From Acidobacteriota bacterium (GTDB taxonomy: Bacteria > Acidobacteriota > Terriglobia > Bryobacterales > Bryobacteraceae), in contig JAPKYX010000091.1 in assembly GCA_026394075.1 (NCBI GenBank), positions 1 through 47,327 of the forward strand: a DNA stretch of 47,327 bases, in the 5' to 3' direction. Below the pieces are notes generated by a model. That model was not told the DNA's origin, did not search any database, and was given only the letters and a program-made list of their open reading frames with translations. This document shows positions 15,297 to 36,500 of this stretch, in pieces. The translations under genes and the position numbers were made by a program. How positions within the stretch are numbered: the stretch's first letter is position 1; every line of letters starts with the position of its first letter.

Positions 15297-15304
15297 GATC
15301 TTTC

Positions 15305-18562: not shown

Positions 18563-18595
18563 GGCCGTCTCTACATCAACTTCTTGTGTGAACCG

Positions 18596-19681
18596 TTACT
18601 CAGCCAGCGTTGCCGCCAACCGCTTGGGATCAATGCGCCACAAAGTCTGTCCCTGTCCGGGCAGATTCGCCAACCATAGCGAGCCGAGCCCGGTCTGGAT
18701 CATCCCGCCACCTTCGCCGACAAACTGTTTGACGACTTTGTCGGTGGACGGATCGATCTGCGTAATCGGGAACCCCACCGTACTGACCCAGAGGGATCCG
18801 TCGCTAAAGGCGAGACTGCCTTCGGCATCCGGGATACCGAGGTCAATCGTGGCCGTGGACTTGTTCGTCTTGGGATCGATGCGGACCACTTTGCCATCTG
18901 CCGCCGCCAGCACCCAAATCGAGTTGTCACCAAAGACAGCGGCGGAAGGCCGGCCCAACACCTCAATGCGTTGCTCCACCAGATTGGTCCGCGGATTGAT
19001 CCGGAGCAACTTATTGTCGGTGGGGCTGGCGATCCAGAGTGAACCCGCCGCCGACACCAGGGAGCGGCAACCGGCGGGCAGCCGCAATTCCGACACCACC
19101 GCGTTGTCTTGCGGGTCGATGCGGCTCAGCGTGGTCTTGTCATCAGATAACAGCCAGATGCTGTCTTCGGTCGAAGCAATGGCCGGGGTGGCGCTTCCCG
19201 TGCCGTAGGGCAGCGTAGCCGTCACTTTGCCGGACTTCGGTTCGACGCGGGCCACGGTCATGTCGCCACACTGGGTAACCCAGAGACTGCCAAAGGCGTT
19301 CAGCAACCCGCAGGGCTGCTTAAACTCCTTCACGGGCTCTGCGGCCTTGTTGGTTTTGCCATCCAACCGCAGCAACGTACCCAACGTCCGGTTGGCCACC
19401 CAGGCGCTGGACGCGGGGCCAGGCAGGAACCACATGGCCGACGCCGCACCCTCTAACTTGAATTCCGCTTCGGGCTTGAGGTTCCCGAGCGGGATCTGAA
19501 TACCCGGAGTTTTGATGCCGGGCTTCGACGGTGCGGCCGGACGTTTGGGGTCCTTAGCCGCAGCGCCCGTCGCCGTCATCGAAAGAGCAATCGCCGTAGT
19601 GGCGAGGACAGCAGCGGCGCGGAAGGCCCGAAGGCCCCGCGCCGCCACTTGCTGATCACGAAATGGAGAAGCCAAATGCAT
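18596..19681 (-). CDS. Secreted virginiamycin-B-lyase-like beta-propeller (copy A)
   Basis: Secreted six- or seven-bladed beta-propeller, 361 residues. A signal peptide runs to about 45 (AVLATTAIALSMTATGAAA). Each blade of about 42 residues ends in a motif like LWVTQCGDMTVARVEPKSGKVT or LWIASPTDNKLLRINPRTN, the Vgb/YVTN pattern. The paired Cys in QPCGLLNAFGSLWVTQCGD match copy B at 25063-26085. No catalytic His/Tyr set of true Vgb lyase could be recognised, so the role is unknown (binding or scaffolding). The open frame extends upstream to 20059, but that part runs inside the receptor gene; ATG 19681, 7 bp after the receptor stop, begins a good signal peptide and is chosen. ATG 19699 would overlap the receptor stop and is possible. 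Confidence 0.85.
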   Translation of the reverse strand: MHLASPFRDQQVAARGLRAFRAAAVLATTAIALSMTATGAAAKDPKRPAAPSKPGIKTPGIQIPLGNLKPEAEFKLEGAASAMWFLPGPASSAWVANRTLGTLLRLDGKTNKAAEPVKEFKQPCGLLNAFGSLWVTQCGDMTVARVEPKSGKVTATLPYGTGSATPAIASTEDSIWLLSDDKTTLSRIDPQDNAVVSELRLPAGCRSLVSAAGSLWIASPTDNKLLRINPRTNLVEQRIEVLGRPSAAVFGDNSIWVLAAADGKVVRIDPKTNKSTATIDLGIPDAEGSLAFSDGSLWVSTVGFPITQIDPSTDKVVKQFVGEGGGMIQTGLGSLWLANLPGQGQTLWRIDPKRLAATLAE

Positions 19682-19688
19682 TCCCGAT

Positions 19689-22600
19689 CTAGAACTCATA
19701 CCGCAAAGCGAACTGCATGACGCGAGGTGCCATAACGCCGGTGAACTGACCGAACGTGGTGGGATTGGCCAGCGATAGGCTTGCGGTGGTGAAGTTGACG
19801 TTGTTGAAGGCGTTGAACGCTTCCGCGCGCACCTGGACACGATGTCCCTCGAAGGGTAGTTTGAAGTACTTGCCCAGCGAAAGGTCGAAATTCGACATCG
19901 GTGCCATACGCAGGATTGAGCGGGTTCCAGTAGATCCCGGGTATTGACCCATGAAGGCGTTGGCCGCCGCATTGGTTGCCCGGAACAGGCTGGGGTTCCC
20001 TGCTTGATTGTACCCGACACCATTTTCCGGCATCGCCGTGCCGGGCCGCAGCATGGCAATGGCCGAGTTGAGGTAGTTGGTGGGGTAGATGCCGCCGTTG
20101 GTGATCACCGTGGGCAGGCCGGAGCGGTACCGCCACAGCATGGAGGTCTGCCAACCGCCCACCACCTGGTCCAGCCAGCCGGGGGCGTTGTGCAGGAAGG
20201 TCTTGCCTTTGCCGAACGGCAGTTCCACCACGGTGTTGGCCGTGATGTTGTGGCGCTGGTCAAAGTCAGACGAGCCGCGGAAGGCGTTGGGGTTGAACGA
20301 ATCCTGGATGACGCCGCCGGCGGTGCCAGAGGCTGATTCCGCGGTGGAGGCGATGTCGATGGAGTGCGACAGGGTGTAGTTGAAGTCAAAGCCCCAACCG
20401 TTACTGACCGCGCGGCGCAGCACCAATTGGCCGCCATGGAACGAACTGCGTCCCGCATTGGACCAGGCCACATTGCCCGCGTTCTGTAGCGCGAAGAACG
20501 TATTGCAACCGAAGGCGCTGATGCAGCTGCCGTCGGGCAGACGTTCACGATCCATGTCGTTCAACGCGTCCAGATCGCTGCCGCCGTAGGTGCCGTAGGT
20601 GGTGTTGAAATAATTGGCCGTGGCGCTGCCCGGGAAGGTACGGTTGGCGGCCTTGCCGAAGACGTTCTCGATGAACGGAACGTTGGGCAGCAAACCGGGG
20701 TTGGCGCGAACTTGAGCCGGGGTCAAGCCCTTCTCGAAGGCGTCACGCAACACACCGGCCGCCTGCGCCCAGGTCTGACCCGACCGCGGATCCTTAAACT
20801 GCGTCAGCGGCTGGAACACGTCCACCTGCACCAGGCTCTTGCGAGCCAGGCGACCGACGTAGCCCACTTCGATGGTCATCTTGCTGGGCAGCTGCCGGGC
20901 GTAGCTGACGTTCAGCAGCATGGAGTACGGGGCCACCAAGTTCGGGAAGACGCCCGAGAAGGAGCCGAAGCCGCCCAGAATCGTGGGGGGCGTAAAGGGG
21001 AAAGCAGCGGCCGGGGCCGTCGGCAGCGTCGGGAACGTGGTGCCGTTGTAGCGGGCCGAATCAGTAAAGTTGGTGTTGCGGGGCTGGGTGACCGGGCTGG
21101 CCAAGCCGGGGGATCCGGCGCGGTCGAAGTTCAGCACCATGTCGCTGCCGTAGCGGTCGTAGAGCATCGACGCTCCACCGCGGATGACGCTCCCCTTGCC
21201 GAACATCTTGCCGAACAGGCTGTCGCTGACCGGCGCGTAAGCGAAGTTGAAGCGCGGCGCGAAGTTGTTGTTGTCGCGCTGGTACCAGCCTTGGCCATTG
21301 TTGACCGGACCGCCCAGTGCATAGGTGAGCGCCGCGTTCGGCATCCGGGCACCAGAGATGCCGGCATTGGATGCGCCGACGCGTTCGGCGAAATAGACGT
21401 CCAGGCCCGTCGTGGGCACCACCTGCACACCACCCCGCTCATAGGGGACCTGATAGCTGCCGTAGCGCAGGCCATAAGTCAGCGTCAGGTCGCGGCGCAT
21501 CTTCCAGGTGTCCTGGATGTAAAACTCATACTCGCGCGTGCCGAAGCTGCGGGCCAGCGGCTCACCAAACGGAACGGCCTTGCCGTCACGGCCGAAGTTG
21601 TAGGTGGCGGAATAGCTATTGAGCAGCCCGTAGAGTCCACCCAGTGCGCGCTGCGCCGGCTGAATCTCGGAAAGGGCCAAGGCGGAATTGCCGGAGCGCT
21701 GCTTCAAATACACGTTCAAGGCATCCGTGATGTCCGCGCCCAAGCCCCGCAGCGTGTTGCGGCCGAAGGAGTAGGCGGGATAGGAATTGGCGAAGGAGTT
21801 GCGATCATTCTGCACGAGGCGGAAATTGACTCCAGTCTGTACCGTGTGGGTGCCCTTGGTCCAGGTGAGATCGTTCACCAGGTTGGTGGTGGGGATGATG
21901 CGGCCAAAGCCCCGGGTGAAGTTTTGCAACGTCGACAAGCCATCAAAGGTCAGCGAAGCGCCGGGCGTGCCAGATTGAGCAATGCCCAAGCGGGTGTAGC
22001 CGTAGCTGAAGACATTCACGAGTGAAGGAGACAAGACGGCCGTGTAGCGCGCCGCCAAGCCCTTGGAGTTGTCCAGATTCTTGGCCGCCGCGTCCTGGCC
22101 GGGAAACTGCGCCAGCACCTCGTCGCGAACATTGTTGCCCAGCGTGCCGCGCAGCATCAGAGTGTGCTTGGCGGAGCGGTCCAGGTTGAAGTCCATCTTG
22201 GCCACATAGGCCTTGTCGTTGCGCGTCAGCGGCGCATTGAAGCGGTAGACGCCAAAGTTCAGCCCGCGGTCGGAGCCGGACTGTAGATCATTGGCCACGG
22301 GATACTGCTTCATGATGCCCTGCATGGCTGCGCTGTAGCCGATCCCTAGCGGATCAAGCGACTTCACTTCATCGGGCGTCAACTGGCCAATCTGTCCGTT
22401 GTTCAGGCGGAACTGCACGATGCCCTGCTTCAGGGTCTCGGTGGGGACGTTGCGGGACTGGGCCGCGGCGGAACGATCCTTGCGCTCTTCCCAGTTGGCG
22501 AAGAAGAAGATGCGGTCCTTAATGATGCGACCGCCCAGAGAGGCACCGTACTGATTGCGGATCAGGTTTTCGCGCTTCAGGCCGGAGCGGTTGGAGAACC

Positions 22601-23363
22601 AGTCGTTGGCCGCCGTCTTGACGTTGCGGTGGAACTCATACAGCGATCCATGGAACTGGTTGGAACCACTCTTGGTCACCAGCGACACCTGGCCACCGGC
22701 CGAACGGCCTTGGTCAGCGCCCTGGCCGGCGATCGTGACACGGAACTCCTGCACGCTATCGAGCGGTACCGGCAGGGCGGCATTGAGGCCGGCCGACGTC
22801 GTCGCCGTCATGCCAGCGGACTGGTTGTCGTTGACGTCCACACCGTCCAGGGTGACGTTGTTCTGGTCACGCTTGGCACCCAGCACTTCGCCGGTGGAGG
22901 CGACGCCGGGCTGCAGGCTGAGCAGTTCCACGATGTTGCGGGTCTGCAGCGGCAGCTGGCGCACCTGAACTTCCGTAAAGGCGTTGCCGATGGTGGCGTT
23001 GGTGGTGTTGACGCTGGCCGCTTCCTCGGTGACGTTGATGGTCTCCGACACTTGGCCCACTTCCAACTGGATGTCCAGGGTCAAGGGAACGTTGATCTGC
23101 AGCCGGACCTGAGAGGTGTAGGTACGGAAGCCGGGCTTTTGCACTTCCAGCTTGTAGTTGCCCGGCGGCAGCTGAACAAACGAGTACGCGCCCGTCGCAC
23201 TGGCCAACGCTTTGCGGGCGGCGGCGGTGTCGGTATTGGTGATGCTGACGATGCTTTCAGCGATGGCGGCCTTTTGGCCGTCCGTGATGGTGCCTTGAAG
23301 CGAACTGGATTGCGCGGCCAATGGCAGGATGGCGCACATCAGTCCAATGATTATCTTTTTCAA
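19689..23363 (-). CDS. TonB-dependent receptor with carboxypeptidase regulatory-like domain (receptor 1)
   Basis: Outer-membrane receptor of 1224 residues, Oar-like as in Acidobacteria. A signal peptide (IIIGLMCAILPLAAQ) is followed by a carboxypeptidase-regulatory-like domain at about 20-110 (GTITDGQKAAIAESIVSITN, GAYSFVQLPPGNYKLEV), a plug (LPLQTRNIVELLSLQPGV, DQNNVTLDGVDVNDNQ) and a long beta-barrel ending in a terminal aromatic (MQFALRYEF). The start is a TTG at 23363 with a strong ribosome site (AGGGGG) 7-8 nt before it. The ligand is unknown. First gene of a four-gene operon with the propeller, PSD1 and DUF1501, hence likely glycan- or metabolite-linked. Divergent from the guanidine operon. 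Confidence 0.95.
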   Translation of the reverse strand: MKKIIIGLMCAILPLAAQSSSLQGTITDGQKAAIAESIVSITNTDTAAARKALASATGAYSFVQLPPGNYKLEVQKPGFRTYTSQVRLQINVPLTLDIQLEVGQVSETINVTEEAASVNTTNATIGNAFTEVQVRQLPLQTRNIVELLSLQPGVASTGEVLGAKRDQNNVTLDGVDVNDNQSAGMTATTSAGLNAALPVPLDSVQEFRVTIAGQGADQGRSAGGQVSLVTKSGSNQFHGSLYEFHRNVKTAANDWFSNRSGLKRENLIRNQYGASLGGRIIKDRIFFFANWEERKDRSAAAQSRNVPTETLKQGIVQFRLNNGQIGQLTPDEVKSLDPLGIGYSAAMQGIMKQYPVANDLQSGSDRGLNFGVYRFNAPLTRNDKAYVAKMDFNLDRSAKHTLMLRGTLGNNVRDEVLAQFPGQDAAAKNLDNSKGLAARYTAVLSPSLVNVFSYGYTRLGIAQSGTPGASLTFDGLSTLQNFTRGFGRIIPTTNLVNDLTWTKGTHTVQTGVNFRLVQNDRNSFANSYPAYSFGRNTLRGLGADITDALNVYLKQRSGNSALALSEIQPAQRALGGLYGLLNSYSATYNFGRDGKAVPFGEPLARSFGTREYEFYIQDTWKMRRDLTLTYGLRYGSYQVPYERGGVQVVPTTGLDVYFAERVGASNAGISGARMPNAALTYALGGPVNNGQGWYQRDNNNFAPRFNFAYAPVSDSLFGKMFGKGSVIRGGASMLYDRYGSDMVLNFDRAGSPGLASPVTQPRNTNFTDSARYNGTTFPTLPTAPAAAFPFTPPTILGGFGSFSGVFPNLVAPYSMLLNVSYARQLPSKMTIEVGYVGRLARKSLVQVDVFQPLTQFKDPRSGQTWAQAAGVLRDAFEKGLTPAQVRANPGLLPNVPFIENVFGKAANRTFPGSATANYFNTTYGTYGGSDLDALNDMDRERLPDGSCISAFGCNTFFALQNAGNVAWSNAGRSSFHGGQLVLRRAVSNGWGFDFNYTLSHSIDIASTAESASGTAGGVIQDSFNPNAFRGSSDFDQRHNITANTVVELPFGKGKTFLHNAPGWLDQVVGGWQTSMLWRYRSGLPTVITNGGIYPTNYLNSAIAMLRPGTAMPENGVGYNQAGNPSLFRATNAAANAFMGQYPGSTGTRSILRMAPMSNFDLSLGKYFKLPFEGHRVQVRAEAFNAFNNVNFTTASLSLANPTTFGQFTGVMAPRVMQFALRYEF

Positions 23364-23387
23364 AACGAAGCCCCCTGAAGTAGATGC

Positions 23388-23408
23388 TTCGCCCAGACAA
23401 TGGGCGAA
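23388..23408 (-). promoter_or_regulatory. Hairpin in the 5' leader of receptor 1
   Basis: Seven-base stem TTCGCCC / GGGCGAA with a seven-base loop, ending 24 nt before the TTG start. It would lie in the leader of the receptor mRNA and could affect mRNA stability or translation. No riboswitch class is recognised. Confidence 0.4.
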
Positions 23409-23442
23409 AAGGGCTCAAACGATGAGGAACGCGATGCGGGGC

Positions 23443-23448
23443 GTTATA
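23443..23448 (-). promoter_or_regulatory. -10-like TATAAC for the receptor 1 operon
   Basis: On the minus strand TATAAC (23448 to 23443) would give a start near 23436 and a leader of about 73 nt. No good -35 is seen; the region where it would be holds a 15-base palindrome. Confidence 0.35.
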
Positions 23449-23459
23449 CGGAAAACCGC

Positions 23460-23474
23460 GCTTCGACGCGAAGC
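23460..23474. promoter_or_regulatory. Palindrome GCTTCG-ACG-CGAAGC, possible operator
   Basis: Perfect 6-3-6 inverted repeat in the divergent region between receptor 1 and the symporter. It covers the -35 position of the putative minus-strand promoter (TATAAC) and lies about 35 bp upstream of the plus-strand -35. This placement fits a repressor or activator site; no regulator gene is in the window. Confidence 0.4.
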
Positions 23475-23505
23475 AACGGCTTAGAGGAAGCATAAAAGAA
23501 ATCGA

Positions 23506-23536
23506 TTGGGGGCGTCAAATAGAAAGAGGCTATAAT
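23506..23536 (+). promoter_or_regulatory. Sigma-70-type promoter of the symporter/guanidine operon
   Basis: A perfect TATAAT at 23531-23536 is preceded by TTGGGG at 23506-23511 (spacing 19). Transcription would start near 23543, leaving a leader of about 87 nt. The leader has a small hairpin (23548-23562) and a ribosome site (CGGAG at 23616-23620), but no recognisable guanidine-I, -II or -III riboswitch core. Confidence 0.6.
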
Positions 23537-23629
23537 CCTTATTCAGCCCGCTCCGTCAGCGGAACACCCCGTCCAACCGCCCTTCGGCCCCTGTTTGCGC
23601 CGCATTCTTCCTGATCGGAGTACGCTTTC

Positions 23630-25066
23630 GTGAACGCAACACCTATGTTGTGGCCGGTGTTGATTTTTATGGCGATCTCGCTCGCCATCGGCCTGTATAC
23701 ATACACGCAGGTGCGGGGTTCCAGCAAGAACTACACCGTCTGCGGCAAGGCGATGCCGTTTATCGTGGTGGGTACGGCACTGGCGGCCCAAGCCATTGAT
23801 GGCAATGCCACGTTGGGCAATACTTCAATTACTTTTGGGCAAGGTCTGTGGAGCGGATTGGTAATTCCTATCGGATTGGCGGCAAGCCTGTTCATTGTCG
23901 GGCGATTTCTTGCAGCGCCACTGAACCAGATGAACTTGCTGACGCTACCCGAGTTCTTTTACCGGCGCTATGGACGGGTGGCGGAGTTGCTGGCTTCGCT
24001 GCTGACCATCGTTTGTTTCATTGTGCTGGTGGCGGGCAATCTGTCGGCGGTGGCGTGGATTCTTTCCGTGGTGACGGGCTGGTCCTATGGCCAATGTCTG
24101 ATTTTCGGCACGACGGTGATCTTCCTCTATACGATCGCCGGCGGCTTGTACGCGGCCATCTGGACGGATTTCCTGCAGATCCATGTGGCCATCGTCGGCT
24201 TTCTGGCGGCGGCGGGGTACATCTTGTTCACCCGTGGCTCGGACAACATCGCTGCGGCGCTGCCGGCGGCGACACTGAGCCTGGATCAATTGACCACCAT
24301 GGCCGGGGGCGGCCTTCCGAACTGGGCCAACATGATCTCGCTGGCCTTTGGCAACGCCATGGCGCTGGACTTTATGGAGCGCGTGTTTTCAGCCAAGAGC
24401 CCGGACACGGCGCGGCGCGCTTGCTACTACGCGGGTGTCTGGACGCTGGTGATTGGCTCCTGCGCCTCTTTGATCGGCCTGGCCGCCATTTCGGCGGTGG
24501 GCAATGTGGGTGACCCGCGCATGGTGCTGCCGGCGTTCGCCAGTGGCCACTTGCCTTACTGGGTGGGCGTGCTCGTGTTCCTGGGCGTGCTGGGGGCGTC
24601 GATGTCGACGGCCAACGGAGCGATGCTGGTGATCGCCGTGGTGATGGCGCGCAATGTGTGGCAGCGCTGGAATACCAAGCCCGTCTCCGATAGCCTGATG
24701 CTGTTTCTGTCCCGAGCGCTGGCGCTACCGACGGCGATCGCGGCCGCCTGGATCGCTTATGTGCGGCCAGAGCCGGGCATCTTGCTGGTGGTGGCGTTTG
24801 ACATTGTGTTTGCGGGTTGCGTGATCCCGCTCTTCTTTGGGGTCTACTGGAAGCGGGCGACCCAAGCGGGTGCCATTGCGAGCATCGCGATGGGCACGCT
24901 GGCGCGTCTGATTTGTTACTTTGCGGTACCGGCTGTGTGGGCTGGCCTCGATACGTTGCTGCCGCCGGTGGTGAGCGCGATTGCGTTTGTCACGGTGAGC
25001 CTGCTGACCGAACCCAGCACCGAGTTGCGGACCGAATCTTTGTTGGTGGAGGCGATGGAAGGATGA
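23630..25066 (+). CDS. Sodium:solute symporter (SSS family), first gene of the guanidine operon
   Basis: Inner-membrane transporter of 478 residues with about 12-13 hydrophobic helices. SSS-family traits are present: AAQAIDGNATLGNTSITFGQGLW near the N-terminus, LTLPEFFYRRYGRVAELLAS, and IAGGLYAAIWTDFLQ, which matches the family's GGLxAvixTDxiQ block. The yeast urea carrier Dur3 is also of this family. Given the genes behind it, import of guanidinium, urea or a related cation is inferred. The GTG at 23630 has a ribosome site CGGAG 9 nt upstream; the ATG at 23645 is less well placed. The stop overlaps the propeller start as ATGA. Confidence 0.88.
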   Translation: MNATPMLWPVLIFMAISLAIGLYTYTQVRGSSKNYTVCGKAMPFIVVGTALAAQAIDGNATLGNTSITFGQGLWSGLVIPIGLAASLFIVGRFLAAPLNQMNLLTLPEFFYRRYGRVAELLASLLTIVCFIVLVAGNLSAVAWILSVVTGWSYGQCLIFGTTVIFLYTIAGGLYAAIWTDFLQIHVAIVGFLAAAGYILFTRGSDNIAAALPAATLSLDQLTTMAGGGLPNWANMISLAFGNAMALDFMERVFSAKSPDTARRACYYAGVWTLVIGSCASLIGLAAISAVGNVGDPRMVLPAFASGHLPYWVGVLVFLGVLGASMSTANGAMLVIAVVMARNVWQRWNTKPVSDSLMLFLSRALALPTAIAAAWIAYVRPEPGILLVVAFDIVFAGCVIPLFFGVYWKRATQAGAIASIAMGTLARLICYFAVPAVWAGLDTLLPPVVSAIAFVTVSLLTEPSTELRTESLLVEAMEG

Positions 25067-26085
25067 TGCGATCAAGCTGGATGGCCTGGATGTTGGGCGT
25101 TTGCCTGGCCTTGGGACAGGAGGCGCCACCGGCTGCGGCCCCGCCGCCCGCCCCGCCCAAACAGCGCCCGCAGCGTCCGCCGCTGCCGGGAGTGAAGGAA
25201 GTGCAGAGGCCGATGTCGGTGGTGACACCGGAAGCGGTCTTCTCCGTGCCCGGAGTACCGGATTGGCTGATCGATACGCCGGATGCGGTGTGGGTGTCGA
25301 ACAAGCCCAAGAATTCGATCTCGAAGCTGGACATCAAGACCAATACCGTCACGGCCACCGTGACCGTGGGCGAGAAGCCTTGCAGCGGCTTGGCCTACGG
25401 CTTTGGCAGCGTCTGGGCTCCCAATTGTGGCGACAAGACGGTCTCCCGCGTCGATGACAAAGAAGCCAAGGTGATCGCCACCATCCCGGTGGGCCCGGCG
25501 GATTCCGAAGGCGGCATCACGGCCTCGCCTGAAGCGGTGTGGATGGCCACCGGTGCGGAAGGCGACAAGGTGGCGCGCATTGATCCCAAGACCAATACCG
25601 TGACGGCTGAAGTGCCCGTCCCGGCTGGTTCACACACGGTGGATTACGGCGAAGGCGCGGTGTGGGTGACGCAGAGCAAAGGCAAGCTGCTGACCCGCAT
25701 TGACCCGAAGACCGCAAAGGTGACCGACCAGATCGAAGTGGGCCCCGGGCCGCGCTTTCTGACCGTCGGTGAGGGCTACGTTTGGACGCTCAACCAGGGC
25801 GACGGCACGGTCTCCAAAGTAGACCCGAAGACGCGCAAGGTGGTGGCAACGATCACGGTGGGCGTGCCCGGCGGCGGCGGTGAAATTTCGGCGGCGGGCG
25901 GCGCGGTGTGGATCACGGTGTTCCAGATCCCCATCTCGCGCATTGATGCCAAGACCGACAAGGTGACCCATCAGTACGCCGGGCCGGGCGGTGACGCGAT
26001 TCTGTTCGCGCATGGCTCCGTTTGGCTTTCCAACCTGCGCCAGCAAAACGTGTGGCGCCTTGATCCTGCGAAAATTACTCAATAA
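25063..26085 (+). CDS. Secreted beta-propeller (copy B), in the guanidine operon
   Basis: Secreted beta-propeller of 340 residues. The leader (WMAWMLGVCLALGQ) is followed by a Pro/Ala-rich linker, then blades of about 42 residues such as VARIDPKTNTVTAEVPVPAG, LTRIDPKTAKVTDQIEVGPG and VSKVDPKTRKVVATITVGVP. The Cys pair of KPCSGLAYGFGSVWAPNCGD is shared with copy A at 18596-19681. Function is unknown; a periplasmic protein inside a cytoplasmic nitrogen-scavenging operon suggests substrate capture or sensing near the symporter. The frame is open further upstream inside the symporter, but ATG 25063, overlapping the symporter stop and preceded by GGAAGG, starts a good leader. It is followed by TAATG overlap with the next gene. 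Confidence 0.85.
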   Translation: MMRSSWMAWMLGVCLALGQEAPPAAAPPPAPPKQRPQRPPLPGVKEVQRPMSVVTPEAVFSVPGVPDWLIDTPDAVWVSNKPKNSISKLDIKTNTVTATVTVGEKPCSGLAYGFGSVWAPNCGDKTVSRVDDKEAKVIATIPVGPADSEGGITASPEAVWMATGAEGDKVARIDPKTNTVTAEVPVPAGSHTVDYGEGAVWVTQSKGKLLTRIDPKTAKVTDQIEVGPGPRFLTVGEGYVWTLNQGDGTVSKVDPKTRKVVATITVGVPGGGGEISAAGGAVWITVFQIPISRIDAKTDKVTHQYAGPGGDAILFAHGSVWLSNLRQQNVWRLDPAKITQ

Positions 26086-26798
26086 TGTCAGACCAGATTC
26101 TGTGGGAAGAAACTGTGCACGGCGGCCAGACCTGGTCGCATGTGCTGGAACGGGGCCAGGCGTTACGGCTGACCGATGTTGAAGGCGGCGCGAATGTCAG
26201 TGCTCTGTTCTACAACGCCAAACAGACCGACGAGCGCTACAACATGCCCGACACGCTGAAGGCGCAACACATCGCGCGGCTCACCGAAGGCTTCGTGCTC
26301 TATTCCGACATGGGCCGCATCCTGTGTTCGGTGACGCAGGACACCGTGGGCTGGCATGACCCGATCGGCGGCACGCTGTCGGCCGCACAGGTGAAAGCCA
26401 AGTACGGCGAAAAGAGCTACCAGGAGCATCGCAATGGCTGGACCCAGAGCGCTCGTGAAGGGCTGCTGCTGGAGCTGGCCAAGTATTCGATGGGTCCGCG
26501 TGACATCACGCCCACGCTGAATTTGTTCAGCAAGGTGCAAGTAGATGAAGCCGGTGGCATGCACTACGTCCCGGGCAACTCCAAGGCCGGTGACACGGTG
26601 GAACTGCGGGCGGAGATGGATGTGCTGGTGGTGCTGGCCGCCAATCATCATCCGATGGAGCCGGGCAGCGTGTATGCGCCGAAGCCCGTGCAGCTGACCG
26701 TGAAGCGCGTGGCCGCACCGGCCACCGATGACCCTTGCCGATTGTCCCGGCCCGAGAATGGCCGTGGATTCATCCTGACGGAGCGCTACGGACAATGA
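26085..26798 (+). CDS. DUF1989 protein, urea amidolyase-associated protein 1 type (carboxyguanidine deiminase subunit)
   Basis: Protein of 237 residues matching the UAAP1 family. Members were shown to form, with a second DUF1989 protein, a carboxyguanidine deiminase (CgdAB) that turns carboxyguanidine into allophanate and ammonia. Visible family blocks: [54 protein letters not shown] and [25 protein letters not shown]. At the position where its partner has Cys90-Gly-x-His93 it has Val88-Gly-Trp-His91, and the other zinc-site Cys are missing too, so this subunit probably does not hold the metal site by itself. It overlaps the propeller stop by one base and the next gene by four. Confidence 0.9.
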
Positions 26799-27412
26799 GC
26801 ACCCCGACCAACATCTCTCTCGACGTCGTCCTTCCTGCCGGCGACGGCTTTAGTGGCGTCGTCAAGGCGGGCCAGCGTTTCCGCATCATTGACCTCGAAG
26901 GCAATCAGGCCGTCGACACGTTGTTCTACAACGCCGACGACTATGAAGACAGCTACTCGGCGGTCGAGACCATCTGCGCGCAGCGCAATATCTATCTGAC
27001 CAAAGGCACCAATCTCGTCACCCAGAACGGCAACGTGCTGATGACGATTGTGGACGACACCTGCGGACGGCATGACACGCTGGGCGGGGCTTGTTCGCAG
27101 GAGTCGAACATGGTGCGCTACGACATCGGCAAGCGCCACATGCACGCCTGCCGCCAGACGTTTCTGCGCTATGGCAAGCAGGAAGGCCTGGAAAAGCGCG
27201 ACATCACGCACAACGTCAACTTCTTCATGAACGTTCCGGTGACGCCGGAAGGCAAGCTGACGTTTGAAGACGGCATCTCGGAATCCGGCAAGTATGTCGA
27301 GCTGGAAGCCCGGATGGACACGCTCGTTGTGATCTCGAATTGCCCGCAACTCAACAATCCTTGCAATGCGTACAACCCGACACCCGTGCGCTTGCTGATC
27401 TGGAAGCCGTAG
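26795..27412 (+). CDS. DUF1989 protein, urea amidolyase-associated protein 2 type (carboxyguanidine deiminase subunit)
   Basis: Protein of 205 residues matching the UAAP2 family and partner of the preceding gene in the carboxyguanidine deiminase. It keeps the probable metal site: Cys90 and His93 (DDTCGRHD), Cys100 (GGACSQES) and Cys119 with nearby His115/His117 ([12 protein letters not shown]). The conserved [23 protein letters not shown] and [24 protein letters not shown] blocks are also present. The open frame extends back to 26735, but ATG 26795 overlaps the upstream stop as ATGA and gives the normal length. The carboxylase follows after 6 bp. Confidence 0.92.
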
Positions 27413-27418
27413 CTAGCA

Positions 27419-30400
27419 GTGTTTAAGAAAGTCCTGATCGCCAATCGCGGCACCATCGCCTGCCGCATCATTCGTACCCTCCACCGGATGGGCATTGCGA
27501 GCGTCGCCGTCTATTCGGACGCCGATGCGCATTCGGCCCACGTCAAGCAAGCAAGAGAGGCCGTCGCACTGGGCGGCGTCCGCAGCTATCTCGATGTGGA
27601 AGCCGTGCTGGCGGCGGCCAAAGCCAGTGGCTCCGAAGCCATCCATCCGGGCTATGGCTTCCTGAGCGAGAACGCCGCCGTTGCCGAAGCGTGCGAAGCG
27701 GCGGGCCTGGCCTTTATCGGGCCGACACCCGAGCAGATGCGCGAGTTCGGGTTGAAGCACCGGTCCAAGGAGATTGCGGCCGAGCAGAACGTGCCGCTGC
27801 TGCCGGGTACCGGACTGTTGGCGCAATGGCAGGACGCGGAAGCGATCGGGTTTCCGTTGATGCTGAAGTCCACCGCTGGTGGTGGTGGCATCGGCATGCG
27901 CTTGTGCCGCAATGCGGGAGAGCTCGAAGAAGCATTTGCGGCGGTGGAGCGCTTAAGCCGCGCCAGCTTTGCCGATTCCGGCATCTTTGCCGAGCGTTTT
28001 GTGGAACACGCGCGACACATCGAAGTGCAGATCTTTGGCGATGGCCAAGGCCGCGTGGTGGCGCTGGGCGAGCGCGACTGTTCGACCCAGCGGCGCAATC
28101 AGAAGGTGATCGAAGAGACGCCCGCGCCGGGCATCTCAGAGGAGACGCGCCAGCAACTGTTCGCCGCCGCGGTGCGCTTGGGCCAGGCGGTGAACTACCG
28201 CAACGCGGGCACGGTGGAGTTCATCTACGATGCTGACCGGGGCGAGTTCTACTTCCTGGAAGTGAACACGCGCCTTCAGGTGGAGCATGGCGTCACGGAA
28301 GAGGTGACGGGCGTTGATCTGGTGGAGTGGATGGTCCAGCAGGCGGCGGGGGAGAGTCCGATCCGCGAAGTGGCTCCGTGCGGCGCTTCCATTCAAGTTC
28401 GCCTCTATGCCGAATCGCCATTGAAGGAGTTCCAGCCCAGTTCCGGTGAACTGAGCCACGTGGCGTGGCCCGCCGACGCGCGTGTCGAAACCTGGGTGGA
28501 ATCCGGCACCACCGTGCCGCCCTATTATGACCCGCTAGTGGCCAAGCTGATCGTGCGCGGCAGTAACCGTGCAGAAGCAGTGGCGGCGCTCGAGCAGGCG
28601 CTGGCCGCAACAACACTGGCTGGTATCGAGACCAATCTCGACTATCTGAGTGCCATCGCGCGCAGCCCGGAATTCCATGCGGGCACCATCACGACGGGCT
28701 TTCTGAAGACGTTCGATTACGCCACGCGCGCCATTGAAGTGATCGAGCCCGGCACGCAATCGACTGTCCAGGATTGGCCCGGCCGCCTGGGCTATTGGGA
28801 CATCGGCGTGCCGCCCTCCGGCCCCATGGACGACCTGGCGTTCCGGCAGGCCAATGAGATTGTGGGCAATGCGCCGGATGCGGCGGGCTTTGAGTTCACG
28901 CTGATTGGGCCGACGCTGAAGTTCCACTTCGATGCCACCGTCGCGCTGACGGGTGCGGACATGGGCCTGCCACGTTGGGTCCCCATCTCCGTGAAGGCGG
29001 GTGAGACGCTCCGGTTGGGAGCCGTTGCGGGTGCGGGCGCGCGGGCTTATCTGGCCGTGCGCGGAGGCGTCGATCTGCCGCCCTATCTGGGTAGCCGCTC
29101 CACGTTTATCCTGGGCAAGTTCGGCGGACGGCAACTGCGCACCGGTGACCTGCTGCGCTTTGGCGCTGCTGCGGTGGCGGAGCCTGCTCCACTGGCTTTG
29201 CCGCCGGTGTATGACAATCACTGGACCATCGGCGTCACCTACGGCCCGCATGGTGCGCCGGAGTTCTTTACGCCGGGCGACATCGAGATGTTCTTCGCAA
29301 CCGATTGGAGAGTGCACTACAACTCCGATCGCACCGGCGTCCGCCTGATCGGCCCGAAGCCCGAATGGGCGCGCTCCGATGGCGGTGAAGCGGGGCTGCA
29401 TCCTTCGAACATCCACGACAACGCCTACGCGGTGGGCACGGTGGATTTCACCGGCGACATGCCGATCATCCTGGGCCCCGATGGCCCCAGCTGCGGCGGC
29501 TTTGTCTGCCCGGCCACCATTGTCGCGAGCGAGCGCTGGAAGATGGGGCAGTTGAAGGCGGGCAACACGGTCCGCTTTGTGCGCATCCATGAGGAGCCCG
29601 CCATCCTGCGTCAAGCGCCGGGTGTGGTGGTTCGCGCCGATGGCGACGAGTATCTATTGGTGGAGTTCGGGGCCAACAAGCTGGACTTTGAGCTTTCAAT
29701 GAAGGCGCACTCACTGCGCCGTCAGTTGCGGCATCCGGGCATTGTGGACTTGACGCCGGGCATCCGGTCCTTGCAAGTGCACTACAACCCGGCGCGATTG
29801 CCGCGCCAGGAACTGTTTGAGCTGATCGACGAAGCGCAGTCGCACTCGATCCGCGAAGTGCCGTCGCGGACGGTGCATCTGCCGTTGAGCTGGGATGACC
29901 CATCGACGCGTGACGCGATCCAGCGCTACATGCAAGGCGTGCGCGCCGATGCGCCGTGGTGCCCGTGGAACATCGAATTCATCCGCCGCATTAATGGTCT
30001 GGAATCAGTGGACGACGTCTATCGGACGGTGTTTGAGGCTAGCTGGTTGACGCTGGCGCTGGGTGATGTCTACCTGGGCGCTCCGGTGGCGACGCCGCTG
30101 GACCCGCGCCATCGGCTCGTCACCACCAAGTACAACCCGGCCCGCACCTGGACGCCCGAGAACGCCGTCGGTATCGGTGGAGCGTACCTGTGCGTCTACG
30201 GCATGGAAGGTCCGGGCGGCTATCAATTTGTGGGCCGCACCACCCAGATGTGGAACACCTATGGCGGCGAGCGGCCCTGGCTGCTGGACTTCTTTGACCG
30301 GCTGCAGTTCTATCCGGTGAGCGCCCAGGAGTTGCTGGAGCTGCGCGCCGACCGGCGCTTCCGGCCGCGCATTGAAGAAGGCGTCTTCAATCTCGACACG

Positions 30401-30769
30401 CACAACGCGTTTCTTGATTCGATTGCTCCTTCGGCGGCGGCCTTCCAATCGAAACGCGACCAGGCGTTCCGCGAAGAGCGGGACCGGTGGGGCGAATACA
30501 TTGCTCCGGCGCTGGACGACGTGCCGCCGCCGAGCGAAGATGCGCTGCCGGAAGGCGCGAGCGCGGTCCGGTCTCCGATCACGGCCAGCGTGTGGAGCAT
30601 TGCCGTCGAGCCCGGCCAGCAAGTAAAGGCCGGTGATCGCATCGTGGTGCTGGAGGCGATGAAGATGGAAGTACTAGTGACGGCTCCTTGTGCGGGCGAG
30701 CTGATTGAGCTGCGCTGTGTGCCGGGCGCAATGGTGCAGCCTGGGCAAGTACTGGCGGTGGTGCGATGA
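27419..30769 (+). CDS. Biotin-dependent guanidine (or urea) carboxylase
   Basis: ATP- and biotin-dependent carboxylase of 1116 residues. Domains in order: biotin carboxylase 1-440 ([14 protein letters not shown], glycine loop [11 protein letters not shown], and [10 protein letters not shown] from 281), a KipA/AHS2 carboxyltransferase half at about 440-735, a KipI/AHS1 half from about 740 to 970, and a C-terminal biotinyl domain from about 1048 with Lys1082 in EAMKME. This is the full urea carboxylase layout. In the KipA part the motif reads VDFTGD with Asp676; in the known comparison of the two enzymes, an Asn in urea carboxylase is replaced by Asp in guanidine carboxylase near this place (recalled, not aligned). 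With the DUF1989 pair upstream, guanidine is the more likely substrate. Start is GTG. Confidence 0.93.
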
Positions 30770-32313
30770 TCGGGGACCGGCCGGTCTGGATCTCCGCGAT
30801 CCCAGCCAAGCCCGCACGCGTGGGTCCGCTGCAAGGCCTGACGTTCGCCATCAAAGACAACATCGATTACGGCGGCGTTCCGACGACGGCGGGTTGCCCG
30901 GCCTATGCCTACACGCCGGAACGTTCGGCGCCGATTGTCGAAGTGCTGGAAGGTGCCGGGGCGGTGGTGCTGGGCAAAACTAATCTGGACCAGTTCGCCA
31001 CTGGCTTGGTGGGTGTGCGGTCGCCCTATGGTGCTTGTTCCAGCGTGTTCAACCCGGCCTACATCTCGGGCGGGTCCAGCTCCGGCTCGGCGGTTGCGGT
31101 GGCGACGGGACAAGTGGATTTCGCGCTGGGTACGGATACGGCGGGTTCCGGACGAGTGCCGGCGGCGTTCAACAACTTGATCGGCTGGAAGCCGACGCGC
31201 GGCGTGATCTCAAATGACGGCGTGGTACCGGCGTGCCGGACGCTGGATTGCGTGTCGGTCTTTACGCGCGATGTGGCGACGGCGCAGCGGGTCTGTGATG
31301 CGGTGGGGACGCCGGGTGTGCCGGCGGCATGGTCACAAGCCGGGTTCCGGTTTGGCGTGCCGCGTCCGGAGCAACTGGAGTTCTTTGGCGACGCCGAAGC
31401 GGCGAAGCTGTTTGCCGCCTCCATGCACCGGCTGATTGCTGCCGGTGGCTCGCCCGTGGTGATCGACTATCAGCCGTTTCTCGAAGTGGCACAACTGCTC
31501 TATTCCGGCCCCTGGGTGGCGGAGCGCTATGCCGCCGTGGGCGAGTTTCTGGAGGCCCATGGCGAGCAGGCCCACCCGGTGGTGCGCGACATCATCCTGG
31601 GGGCGAAAAAACATTCCGCCATCGATACGTTCCGCGCAATGTACAAGCTGGAAGATCTCCGGCTGAAGACGCTGGCCGCCTGGAAGCAGATGGATGTGCT
31701 GTTGCTGCCGACCACTGGCACCACCTACACCATTGAGCAGGTGGAAGCTGATCCGGTGCGGCTGAACTCGAACCTGGGCTACTACACCAACTTCGTCAAT
31801 TTGCTCGATTTGGCCGCGCTGGCGATTCCGGCCGGGTTCCGGCCGAATGGTCTGCCGTTTGGCGTGACGCTGATTGGCCCGGCCCAGTCTGACCGTTCGC
31901 TGCTCACCTTAGCCGCGCGCCTGGAAGAGGTGCAAGTGGCGGTGGTAGGCGCGCACTTAAGCGGCCAGCCCTTGAACAAACAGCTGACCGAACGCGGCGC
32001 TCGCCTCATCAAGACTTGCAAGACCGCCTCAGACTACCGGCTCTACGCACTGGCCAACACCACGCCGCCGAAGCCCGGCCTGGTGCGGGAAGCGGGCTTT
32101 CAAGGCGCCGGGATTGAGGTGGAGATCTGGGCGATGCCCGTGGCCCGCTTCGGCAGCTTTGTCGCACTGATCCCGGCACCGCTGGGGATTGGATCGTTGG
32201 TCCTTGATGACGGCAGCACGGTGAAGGGCTTTATCTGCGAACCGGCTGGACTCGCCGGTGCACGCGACATCTCGGGCTTCGGCGGGTGGCGCGCGTATCT
32301 GGCCTCGCGATAG
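30766..32313 (+). CDS. atzF: Allophanate hydrolase
   Basis: Hydrolyses allophanate to ammonia and CO2, the last step of the pathway. It is an amidase-signature enzyme with Lys30 (FAIKDN), cis-Ser104 in GGSSSGSA, and nucleophile Ser128 ([11 protein letters not shown]). A separate C-terminal allophanate-hydrolase domain follows from about 415 ([41 protein letters not shown]). At 515 residues it is shorter than the usual ~600: the helical N-terminus that normally precedes the amidase core is missing, while the active-site core and C-terminal domain are intact. It overlaps the carboxylase stop by 4 bp, so it is translationally coupled. The stop ends the operon. Confidence 0.93.
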
Positions 32314-32340
32314 GTCCGGCCCAACCCGGGCCGGGTGCCA

Positions 32341-32346
32341 TATACT
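32341..32346 (+). promoter_or_regulatory. -10 hexamer TATACT before the esterase gene
   Basis: TATACT is followed by a GGAG ribosome site at 32357-32360 and ATG 32367, giving a short leader of about 14 nt. No clear -35. Confidence 0.45.
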
Positions 32347-32366
32347 TGGCATTTCCGGAGCCCTTC

Positions 32367-33416
32367 ATGAACCGTTACTTCCGGCGCGTCAGCGCCCTTT
32401 TCGCCACGATCGCCAGTGCCACGCTGCTATCGGCCCAGACTCCAGCTGCCACACCTGCGGCGACACCGCCTGCGCCTGCGGCCCCCAAGCCGAACCACAA
32501 CATCCATTACCGTTTGGGGCCGGACTCGCTGGAACAGGAAGGTGTCCCGAAGGGCACCATCAAGGGACCGTTCACGCTGCCCAGTGAAGTCTACCCCGGC
32601 ATGCAGCACACCTACTTCGTCTATGTGCCCGCGCAGTACGATCCGGCGGAACCGGCCAGCTTGACCGTCTTCAACGATGGCCAGGCGATGATGCATCCCC
32701 AGGGTGATGTGCGCTTGCAGAATGTGATGGACAACCTGATCTACCGGCGCGAGATTCCGGTGATGATCGGCGTCTTCATCAACCCCGGCCGCCGCCCGGA
32801 TCAGCCGGAGCCGACGATGAGTGAATGGGGTGACCGCACCACCAACCGCCCCGCCGAATACAACACGCCCGACGGCAAGTACACCAAGGTGATCGTCGAT
32901 GAACTGCTGCCCGCTTTGAAGAAGGAGTACAACATCTCCGACGACCCCGAACGGCGCTGCATCGGCGGAGCCAGCTCCGGTGCCATTGCCGCCTGGATGG
33001 TGGCCTGGGACCGGCCGGACCAGTTCCGCAAGGTGATCAGCGTCGTGGGCAGCTTCGTCAATCTGCGGGGCGGGCACATCTTTCCGGAGCTGATTCTGAA
33101 GTCAGAAAAGAAGCCGATCCGCATCTTTATGCAGGACGGCCGCAATGACAACCGCGGCCTGGGCCGCACTGGCGTCTACTCGCAGGATCGGGACTGGTTC
33201 TACCAGAACATCCGCATGATGAAGGCGCTGACGGCCAAGGGTTATGACCTGAACTACAGCTGGGGCATCAACGAACACGGCCAAAAGATGGGCGGCCCCA
33301 TCATGCCCGAGATGATGCGTTGGATCTGGCGGGATCACCCGGTTTCCGATGACCCCAACGACATGGTGGAGCGGTCGTTCCGGGAACCCAAGGCAAAAGC
33401 CAAGCCAGTCAATTAG
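32367..33416 (+). CDS. Secreted esterase of the enterochelin-esterase-like family
   Basis: Secreted alpha/beta-hydrolase of 349 residues. A signal peptide ([15 protein letters not shown]) and Pro/Ala linker precede the esterase core: [31 protein letters not shown], then [16 protein letters not shown], and the nucleophile motif [11 protein letters not shown] with Ser203. A C-terminal His lies in [10 protein letters not shown]. Family members act on siderophore or ferulate-type esters, but the substrate here is unknown. ATG 32367 is used (SD GGAG 6 nt upstream) rather than the upstream reading at 32286, which lies in the allophanate hydrolase gene. A strong terminator follows. Confidence 0.9.
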
Positions 33417-33511: not shown

Positions 33512-36500
33512 TTAGAACACCAGCTTCAGCGCGAACTGGATCTGGCGCGCCGGAGAGGCCAGGCTGGTGACGGTGCCGTAGTTGGTGTTGGTGACATTGG
33601 AGTTGGGAGCACCCAGGTTCGACTTGTTGAACAAGTTAAAGAACTCGGCGCGGAACTGCAGGTTCATCGTTTCCCACGGCATCGGGAACTCCTTGTGGAG
33701 GCCGCCGTCGAAGTTGTAGATGGCGTTGCTGACCGCGACGTTGCGGCCCATGTTGCCGAAGGGACGCGAGGGGTCGTTGGCGTTGGCGACGTTCGGAGCA
33801 ACCACCGCGGCCCGGTTGAGGTAGTTCGTGGGGCTACGCTCCGGCGAGTAGAGGCTGCCGCCCAGGTAGTCGGGGCGATAGTTGGGGGCACCGGAGACCT
33901 GGAACGCGGCGGGCGGGCTGTAGGTGAGGTTCACCGGTTGTCCGGCGGTGGCCGTATGGATGGCCGACAGGCGCCAGCCGCCGAACACTCCGTTCATGAA
34001 CCAGTTCGGGGCGGCGTACCGGCGGCCCTTGCCGTAGGGCATTTCCCACACGGCGGTGGTGGTGTTGTTCCACGGCTGGTTATAAGCGCCCAGTCCCTTT
34101 TCAGCAGCTAGGTTGCGATAGTTGACGCGGGAGTTGTCGCCATTGAAGGCTTCCAGGTGGCCCGAGGCGTTGTCCATCGCCTTCGACCAGGTGAAGCTGT
34201 TCAGGAAGTAGAAGCCATTGTTGTACTTCTTCTCAACCTTTATCTGCAAGCCATGGTAGGTGGAGAAGCCGGCGCCATAGGAGATCTGGATGAAGTCGTA
34301 ACCCTGGATCGGACGGCGCGCCAACAGTGTCGAATTCTCGCCGATGGCGTTGGGCCGGGACTGGTTGTAGTCACCCAGAATCATCAGCCCGTTGCCGCGG
34401 TTGCCGACATAGCCGACATCGAGCAGCCAATCCTTGGCCAACTGCCGCTGAATGGTGACGTGCCAGCTTTCCACATAGCTGGTCTTGAAGTCCGCCGGGG
34501 TGTAGTTGGTACGGGTGAGCAGGGTGGAGAAGTTGGCCGGGCTGGCCAGGTTCGGCGGATAGCCCTGCTGCGTCAGGCGGAAGCAATTGCGGTAGTTGTC
34601 GCCGGTGCAGGCCGGCTGACTGGCCAACTGGTTGATGCTGAGGTTGACAATGTTCGGGCCGTTGTAGCCCAACAGATTTTCACCACCCATGCGGTTGAAG
34701 TGCACGTAGCTGATGCCATAGCCGCCGCGGACCACCGTCTTGCTATTGGCCTGGAAGGCAACACCCAAGCGGGGCGCGAAGTTGTTGCGGTCCGGATTGA
34801 CCAGGGCGCGGTCATAAGCGCTGCCGTCCTTGGCCTGGATCAGCGTATTGTTGGCCGGATTGAAGTTGGCGATACGGTTCTGCGCTTCCCATTGCGGGGT
34901 GGCGTACTCGTAGCGGAAACCCAAGTTCAAGGTCAGCTTTGAGGAGACCTTGAAGTCGTCCTGCAGGTAGATGAAGTGCATCCGCTGGCGGTAGTTCAAC
35001 ACGATCTCATTGTTGAGGCTGTAGCTGGAACGCGCGCCCAGCATGAAGTCCGCCAGGTTGTAGAGATTGCTGGCGCCGGAGGTGGTGGGGCGAGTGAACT
35101 GGCCGCCGTAGCTATCGGAGCCGTACTGCGGGTTGAAGTCGAAGATGTCGGTATTGATCGACTGATATTCGTAGCCGGTCTTCAAGGAGTGCTTGCCGAG
35201 AATCTTGGAGTAGTTCACCTTGGGGTTCACCACAAACGGGTTCTGGAACTGCGGATTGGAGCCTTGACGGCCCATGGTGGTGAAGCCGGCGATGCCCTGC
35301 GTGGTGAGACCGCCGCCGATGGTGGGCGAATTGGGCAGGCCGGCGATGCCGTATTCCTGCAGCATGTTCGGGCGTTCGCCACCGATGGCGGACTTGCCAC
35401 CTTCCGTGCGTCCAACCGCGATGCGGAAGTCAATCAGCGAGGTGGGCGACAGGTTGTAGTTGAAGCCGGTAGCGATCTGTTCGTTGATGGCCCGGACGTA
35501 GCCGTTGGCGTCGCCGCCGGAGTTGCCCGGGATGACATGATCTTCAAAACGGACCAGCTTGCGGTTGCTGTAGCGGACGAACAGGTTCAGCTTCGAGGAC
35601 AGGTACTGGTCGTAGCGGATATCGCCTTTGTTGTCGTCCCAGTTGGTGGGCGTCAGGCGCTCATAGTTGTTGGACGGAGCAACGCCGTTGGCATTGCCAC
35701 GAATCGGCGCGGGCAGATCGCCCAGCACGCGGCGCGCAAACGGCGTGATGGCGCTAGCCGGAACACGGCCATCGGTGTAGGTGTCGCCCGTGAGCGGGTT
35801 GCGCACCGGAACGCCCAGGTTGCCCTGGCGCTGATCGAGCGAGGGGATGCTGGCGAACACGAGCGTACGGTCCACGCGGCGCAGGCCTTCGTAGTCGGCA
35901 AAGAAGAACATCTTGTCCTTCAGGATGGGACCGCCAAAGGCGCCACCAAACTGGTTCTGCACCAGGATCGGCTTCACGCCGGTGGCGGGCCTGAAGAAGC
36001 CCACGGCGTTCAACTGCGTGTTGCGGAGAAACTCCCATGCGGCACCGTGATACTGGTTGGTACCGCTGCGGATGGAGGCATTCACCACCGCACCACCGGC
36101 GCGTCCGAATTCAGCCGAGAAGTTGTTGGTCTGGACTTTGAACTCTTCGACGGCGTCCGGGTTCAGCTGAACCACCTGGTTGGAGAAACCCTGGTTCGAT
36201 GTGCCGTAGGCGTTGTTGTCCACGCCGTCCACCATGAAGTTGTTGTGCGAGCTCCGGAGGCCGTTCACGTTGAAGGAGGCATCGCGGTTCAGGATATTCG
36301 ACTTGCGGACGCCGGGCGACAACAGGGCGAGGTCGGCATAAGCGCGACCGTTCAGCGGCAGGTTGACGATCGCTTCGCGCCGGACCACTTGGCCTCGGTC
36401 GCTGGAGTCTGATTCCAGCAGCGCCGGAGCTTCACTCACGGTGACGCTTTCACTCACGTTGCCTACTTCCAGCAGCAGGTTGACGCGCTGGCGGGCATTA

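Follow-up and report, generated by a model that had tools for sequence, protein, structure and literature searches.

A probable guanidine assimilation operon with a divergent outer-membrane, PSCyt and DUF1501 unit in an Acidobacteriota genome

Bacterial guanidine assimilation through the Gca/CgdAB/AtzF pathway is described for Pseudomonas, Nitrosomonas and Vreelandella, in which a guanidine carboxylase (Gca), the two DUF1989 proteins UAAP1 and UAAP2 (CgdA and CgdB) and an allophanate hydrolase (AtzF) are accompanied by an ABC or APC importer. The core pathway has reportedly been in print since 2020, in work by Schneider. A closely related enzyme with another substrate is urea amidolyase/urea carboxylase, represented by the K. 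lactis structures 5i8i and 3va7. The present analysis concerns a six-gene operon at positions 23630–32313 (plus strand) of a 47,327-nucleotide stretch of an Acidobacteriota bacterium (contig JAPKYX010000091.1, assembly GCA_026394075.1), referred to below, at its full length, as the window. Like the described pathway, this operon joins a carboxylase carrying both signature Asp residues, UAAP1/UAAP2 and an allophanate hydrolase. It differs in having an SSF symporter instead of the ABC or APC importer, a beta-propeller gene between the importer and cgdA and no known riboswitch, and in standing beside a divergent unit of outer-membrane, PSCyt and DUF1501 genes. Because the core pathway is already published, the re-annotation of the operon is a correction and not a discovery. 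The chemistry is known; what is new is the kind of importer, the repeated presence of a propeller and the outer-membrane/PSCyt/DUF1501 partners. No report linking a guanidine operon to such an importer, propeller or PSCyt-DUF1501 genes was found in the literature searched, most subscription journals lying outside it.

Gene content and substrate of the operon

Gene families were assigned by NCBIfam and Pfam profile searches with curated cut-offs. The profile matches and coordinates bore out the gene order proposed in an earlier reading of the letters alone (the sequence-only reading), with all six genes tightly packed on one strand. The first gene (23630–25066) encodes an SSF-family symporter (PF00474, 109.9 bits; no listed NCBIfam model reached its cut-off) and the second (25063–26085) a probably secreted beta-propeller of the YVTN/YncE type, propeller 1, with a Cys107/Cys122 pair. 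They are followed by UAAP1 (26085–26798; TIGR03425, 333.1 bits, cut-off 205.95), UAAP2 (26795–27412; TIGR03424, 323 bits, cut-off 284.7), a biotin-dependent carboxylase annotated as urea carboxylase (27419–30769; TIGR02712, 1670.4 bits, cut-off 1303.85) and an allophanate hydrolase with Amidase and AH_C domains (30766–32313; TIGR02713, 747.1 bits, cut-off 511.05; NF006043, PF01425 and PF21986). The overlaps claimed for most of the junctions were present at four of the five, as ATGA at 25063 (symporter/propeller), 26795 (UAAP1/UAAP2) and 30766 (carboxylase/hydrolase) and as TAATG at 26085 (propeller/UAAP1); the exception is a 6-nucleotide gap between UAAP2 and the GTG start of the carboxylase at 27419. 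An identical six-gene order was observed in all six related loci with sufficient flank (L015–L019 and L021; L020 and L035, which are contig ends inside the cluster, were left out of this count), and therefore the cluster did not arise by chance.

The carboxylase comprises the BC, CT-A/B, CT-C/D and BCCP domains (Pfam), with Lys1082 located in the sequence EAMKM, which we take to be the biotin-lysine motif. The same carboxylase domains build the K. lactis enzyme (1075 bits to 3va7). A passage of PMC11410670 states that a guanidine carboxylase needs an Asp at each of the K. lactis positions 1584 and 1330, the latter separating guanidine from urea enzymes, and an excerpt of PMC12186494 assigns Asp to guanidine and Asn to urea at the discriminator position. 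Asp676 of the window's carboxylase (codon 29444–29446, plus strand, computed from the start at 27419) aligns with Asn1330 of 5i8i (TIGR02712 position 701), and Asp883 occupies the 1584 position (TIGR02712 position 956). The urea-type Asn of the K. lactis enzyme is replaced by Asp here; in addition, the hydrolase is a separate gene and cgdAB is present. Under the rule of PMC11410670, Asp676 and Asp883 indicate that the operon very probably assimilates nitrogen from guanidine. The carboxylase itself would prefer guanidine. The sequence-only reading had named guanidine, not urea, as the nitrogen source from the UAAP pair alone, and the two Asp residues support this independently of that argument.

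The two signature positions were examined in 86 related loci (six from the search of a 396-genome phylum sample and the best 80 of at least 594 matching stretches), and 85 of them had Asp/Asp. The sole locus with Asn, Ectothiorhodospira L064, had neither cgdA nor cgdB in its 19 kb and is, judged by this residue, a natural urea-type control. Asp was accompanied by cgdAB wherever the locus extended far enough upstream (the reach was too short in L020, L023, L030, L035 and L059, and only cgdB was reached in L033 and L049). Asp/Asp with adjacent cgdAB was also found in seven of seven plasmid loci, the first fetched of 269 records, and in eight Sphingomonadaceae loci, KACC 22771 being counted in both plasmid sets.

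UAAP1 and UAAP2 both match PF09347 (DUF1989) and both exceed their curated cut-offs. Near-invariant columns, derived from 80 loci for each protein, were kept at 63 of 63 positions in CgdB, 13 of 14 in CgdA and 126 of 127 in the hydrolase. A passage of PMC11410670 defines CgdA and CgdB by placement in the respective clades of a DUF1989 tree; here the pair is assigned to the CgdA/CgdB carboxyguanidine deiminase by profile scores and conserved columns. The hydrolase starts about 50–70 residues later than its solved relatives, with residue 11 aligning at 84 of 4gyr and residue 20 at 69 of 5i8i. Similarly short hydrolases were noted in L015, L018, L019 and L035, where the starts are naive, the most upstream start codon having been taken.

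According to the rival explanation, the operon is a true urea amidolyase pathway in which urea is the carboxylase substrate and the UAAP proteins have an accessory part. The automatic family name of TIGR02712 says urea, the symporter could carry urea, and no guanidine riboswitch accompanies the operon. The lack of a urease in the window's genome (96.9% complete), which is also counted in favour of guanidine, leaves urea use unfilled: two weak PF00449 matches (23 and 24.5 bits), considered as a parallel urease route, turned out to be amidohydrolases of 505 and 519 amino acids. Exactly one carboxylase above the TIGR02712 cut-off was found in this genome. Set against the urea pathway are the residue at the K. 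lactis 1330 position, which is Asp and not Asn, and the distribution of the two residues, since the one Asn locus lacked cgdAB and the Asp loci had it wherever they were long enough upstream. The urea pathway is consequently regarded as very unlikely. A profile search for an SMR/Gdx exporter gave no match in the window's genome.

Proposed pathway, importer and regulation

In the proposed pathway, the chemistry of which is known from other bacteria, the SSF symporter would bring guanidinium into the cytoplasm, where the biotin carboxylase would turn guanidine into carboxyguanidine at the expense of ATP. CgdA/CgdB would remove one ammonia to give allophanate, from which the allophanate hydrolase would release two more ammonia and CO2. 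Propeller 1 and the divergent unit would serve the cell exterior, in the capture, import or processing of a guanidine source.

The symporter is proposed as the guanidine importer replacing the usual ABC importer. It heads the cassette in all six relatives with sufficient flank. SSF homologs (33–34% identity) were also observed on the opposite strand, 1.3–1.9 kb from cgdA, in Cellulomonas L066 and L078.

The Rfam search revealed no guanidine riboswitch at the curated score in the window and none in 23200–32400 even at a relaxed threshold. At the curated score, related acidobacterial DNA gave none either, the search covering 14 stretches of 13 genomes (seven loci of relatives and seven stretches of six other acidobacterial genomes with the carboxylase gene, gca). 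Outside the phylum, guanidine-I or guanidine-II riboswitches were detected at six of 20 Asp-type gca loci (L032, L245, L246, L249, L250 and L251), which shows that the search method works and also favours guanidine as the substrate of such operons. The remaining 14 (L024, L025, L028, L034, L038, L066, L078, L247 and six of Sphingomonadaceae) were negative, the upstream sequence being short in some of them, so the absence of a riboswitch is common. A hidden known riboswitch in the window was rejected on these searches, in which two weak CRISPR-repeat matches (E 0.054 and 8.5) were judged to be chance; a leader RNA structure was rejected too, as single-sequence folds differ among relatives. In the Niallia taxi plasmid L251, three guanidine-I riboswitches were located within 13.6 kb around the guanidine operon.

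Between the symporter gene and the divergent barrel-protein gene lies a conserved intergenic block (23489–23540) with back-to-back promoter-like sites, TTGACG-18-TATGCT on the minus strand and TATAAT on the plus strand; a score from the consensus scan was obtained for the minus-strand site only. The block was clear in five of seven sequences, unrecognisable in G397 and degenerate in G401. Such an arrangement suggests shared control of both divergent transcripts.

Propellers and the divergent unit

Propeller 1 is located directly upstream of cgdA in six of six relatives with flank and in five of five genomes of a distant acidobacterial genus, g5. Its N terminus is signal-like as judged by eye. 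With propeller 1 as the sole query, 72,556 plasmids yielded 11 records, eight from Sphingomonadaceae and three from Microvirga. In all eight Sphingomonadaceae records, some of them from near-identical strains, the propeller stood beside cgdAB-gca-ah (ah, allophanate hydrolase gene) encoding a carboxylase with the equivalent of Asp676, seven times following the hydrolase gene on its own strand and once convergent, and these proteins also begin with a signal-peptide-like sequence (by eye). No guanidine operon was found within 9 kb either side of the propeller in the three Microvirga records, which represent one strain. The Novosphingobium plasmid operon US6-1 (L247) and the loci L023–L094 gave no propeller match. 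The gene directly after atzF in Novosphingobium pentaromativorans US6-1 (L247, 10586–12928) is annotated as a TonB-dependent receptor, and in the Pantoea ananatis plasmid L249 an annotated lactonase family protein (8764–9909), presumably of the propeller family, is encoded convergently to uca.

The pair of cysteines, C107 and C122 in the window's protein, was kept in 30 of 34 propeller rows, missing in the three Microvirga sequences and one partial row, and in all five distant propellers of the window's own genome. In the tree, the 13 acidobacterial gca propellers of type 1 grouped together with a support of 86, below the mark of 95. Since the Sphingomonadaceae propellers (support 100) adjoin an acidobacterial propeller from a genome without gca (G221), recruitment to gca operons may have occurred more than once.

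The AlphaFold model of propeller 1 (pLDDT 86.5) is a beta-propeller, and its best Foldseek match is an archaeal YVTN protein (1l0q, 25% identity). BtuG capture propellers and the hydrazine synthase beta subunit stand near the top of the match list with 16–18% identity. The BtuG/BtuB system of Bacteroides, which captures B12, is similar in that BtuG chains are among the best matches and genes for a propeller and an outer-membrane barrel adjoin here. At such a low identity, and with a generic fold matching many propellers, the modelled resemblance to BtuG and to the hydrazine synthase subunit is a fold analogy only and not a sign of membership.

The sequence-only reading ended at the operon, missing both the absence of a riboswitch and a partner unit at 13770–23363 that accompanies the operon in several relatives. 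All four genes of this unit are encoded on the minus strand. The gene nearest to the symporter (19689–23363) encodes an outer-membrane barrel protein, TonB-receptor-like, with CarboxypepD_reg and OMP_b-brl_4 domains (PF25183, 446.1 bits), for which the Pfam search gave no plug-domain match. It is divergent from the symporter in six of six relatives. Shortly past the operon (33512–36778, minus strand) lies the gene of another outer-membrane protein of the CarboxypepD_reg/OMP_b-brl_4 type, which matches a TonB plug domain. Further into the divergent unit there follow propeller 2 (18596–19681), probably secreted and 38% identical to propeller 1, which falls into a tree group of its own (support 99), a PSCyt1-PSCyt2(DUF1549)-PSD1(DUF1553) protein (15305–18550; PF07635, PF07583 and PF07587; start uncertain, 18562 or 18550) and a DUF1501 protein (13770–15296; PF07394, 453.8 bits) whose N terminus looks twin-arginine-like by eye.

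PSCyt1, DUF1549 and DUF1553 thus reside in one protein encoded beside DUF1501, as is characteristic of this type of pair. The PSD1 protein has two CxxCH motifs (residues 65 and 377, numbered from the start at 18562), both invariant in a 15-row alignment. Its predicted structure (pLDDT 66.3) gave no fold match, the best Foldseek E value being 1.0. The same Pfam domains are found in the PSCyt-PSD1 genes of Planctomycetes and Verrucomicrobia; the proteins described here differ in forming a distinct subfamily of about 1000–1100 residues tied to guanidine clusters and in their association with a barrel protein, a propeller and DUF1501. A second PSCyt/PSD1 gene in the window (7848–10220, plus strand, 790 amino acids; 37% identical to the guanidine-linked PSD1), followed by a DUF1501 gene (10226–11647, plus strand), forms a separate pair.

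The whole divergent unit is kept in G396, G397 and G398. In G399 and G400 only the barrel protein and propeller 2 remain at the locus, PSD1 and DUF1501 being encoded elsewhere beside another barrel-protein homolog (a fragment match only in G400), and in G401 the barrel protein is at the locus, with propeller 2, PSD1 and DUF1501 on another contig. The operon of genus g5 has the order propeller-cgdA-cgdB-gca-ah, without the symporter, and in four of the five genomes an ABC importer and then PSD1 and DUF1501 are encoded divergently from it; in the fifth, G359, these genes lie about 13–20 kb away from the operon. The ABC binding protein of G329, also of g5, scored above the TIGR03427 cut-off. In G402, cgdA-cgdB-gca-ah-ABC is followed by one opposite-strand open reading frame and then by barrel protein, PSD1, DUF1501 and propeller genes. 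In G376 the barrel protein, DUF1501 and a PSD1 end were found on another contig, with no propeller match. These associations suggest a periplasmic or surface location of the propellers, PSD1 and DUF1501 and a link of these proteins to guanidine supply. The divergent unit and propeller 1 most likely serve the outside of the cell, a weaker proposal than that for the core pathway as it draws on gene association only.

Downstream of the operon, phosphonoacetaldehyde hydrolase (TIGR01422) is encoded beside a TIGR03364 FAD oxidoreductase (36813–38987, minus strand), both above cut-off and likely a phosphonate-use pair by their profile matches.

Distribution and association with guanidine carboxylase

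The gca pathway was found in seven of the 396 genomes of the phylum sample, including the window's own, and five of the seven belong to a single genus; guanidine assimilation is rare in this sample. The organism had been described earlier as a soil Acidobacterium. The second word fits the nearest loci, and soil was left unsupported: the nearest named relative among the matches listed, with a 97% identical carboxylase, is a LacPavin metagenome-assembled genome, taken as a lake sample.

DUF1501 of this type, defined as a match in one piece at E ≤ 1e-110, was detected in 12 of 392 genomes (taken as a subset of the 396 searched for gca, of which not all negatives are listed), comprising seven of seven gca-positive genomes, the window's own included, versus five of 385 others. 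The threshold was chosen by the authors; members from g5 score about 1e-120 in one piece and the next paralogs of the seven gca-positive genomes about 1e-94 per piece. All nine listed genomes of g5 without gca also lacked this DUF1501. Seven of seven further gca-positive genomes have it, six of them at 79–97% identity and 949–1146 bits, and the G402 match came as one piece of 353 bits and another of 308. The DUF1501 paralogs ranking next in these genomes reach at most 317 bits in one piece, or up to about 550 with two pieces of one gene summed. The counts are uncorrected for kinship, and the Fisher values of 3e-12 and 7e-10, which ignore it, were not used as proof.

PSD1 genes are common in the window's genome, numbering about 50 (54 matches, some of them pieces). 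In a quick tree without bootstrap, 14 PSD1 proteins of the sets (10 from gca-positive and four from gca-negative genomes) formed one branch apart from 47 paralogs of the window's genome (SH-aLRT 96); G359 (partial), G376 (contig end), G399, G400, G291 (broken) and three own fragments of less than 300 residues were left out. The best-scoring own paralog had 611 bits (41% identity) and the 13 other set members 701–1914 bits (43–92%), some own paralogs reaching higher percentages over short stretches. A mere chance adjacency of PSD1/DUF1501 to the operon is countered, though not fully, by the tree and the co-occurrence.

Several points weigh against the proposed role of the operon and its partners. 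To our knowledge, the symporter belongs to no family that moves guanidine, no known riboswitch was found in the window or the related stretches, and the natural Asn-type controls number only one. Five genomes (G301, G333, G355, G291 and G152) carry this DUF1501 without gca; four of them have the propeller and none has DUF1989. With neither carboxylase nor DUF1989 in these five, guanidine cannot be the only compound that the set serves. The DUF1501 gene is separated from gca in G399, G400, G401 and G376. Finally, PSCyt genes may have a carbohydrate role according to a passage of PMC5615132, and the same source describes them as adjoining unknown gene families, which it does not name there, and their functions as unknown. 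When 10 genes adjoining the set in gca-negative genomes were searched with Pfam, none proved to be guanidine-related. In the acidobacterial loci L201, L202 and L203, whose genomes gave no carboxylase or DUF1989 matches, the propeller gene is divergent from PSD1-DUF1501.

The divergent unit could be unrelated to guanidine, a neighbour by chance or through shared nitrogen control, which would be compatible with the core reading of the operon. This explanation draws on the roughly 50 PSD1 genes of the genome and on the occurrence of the DUF1501 type without gca in the five genomes and away from it in the four. It is opposed by the specificity of the neighbouring PSD1 subfamily, by the co-occurrence counts and by the repetition of the association with different importers (SSF and ABC) in distant families, and it is considered rather unlikely. 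The PSD1/DUF1501 set tracks guanidine use and is not confined to it.

Another explanation, also compatible with the core pathway, is that a substituted guanidine such as methylguanidine is taken up, its substituent being removed before or during import by the secreted PSCyt/PSD1 and DUF1501 proteins. We know of no activity for the PSCyt/PSD1 and DUF1501 families, which counts against it, as do the PSD1 model without a fold match and the occurrence of the set without gca. The two invariant CxxCH motifs of PSD1 are compatible with redox chemistry, and accessory genes have a precedent in MgdH/MgdL of Vreelandella, which, according to a passage of PMC12508155, feed methylguanidine into the same pathway. 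On balance, uptake of a substituted guanidine is thought improbable. Similarly doubtful, and put forward only as speculation, is the idea that the barrel protein, the Cys-pair propellers, the two-CxxCH PSD1 and DUF1501 make up an extracytoplasmic module capturing a guanidino compound, freeing guanidine by redox chemistry and passing it to the importer. If true, such a module would give a function to the abundant orphan PSCyt/DUF1501 pair and account for the repeated occurrence of a propeller next to guanidine operons in two phyla.

For the organism, the preferred reading of the operon as a guanidine assimilation pathway would mean that this capacity in Acidobacteriota, rare in the sample, operates without a recognised riboswitch in the scanned loci and, in the window's group, with an unexpected importer. 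In both Acidobacteriota and Sphingomonadaceae, guanidine operons are repeatedly accompanied by a propeller that is probably secreted. One subfamily of PSCyt/PSD1 with DUF1501 tracks guanidine carboxylase across the phylum sample, and the function of an orphan family thereby becomes testable with a defined compound.

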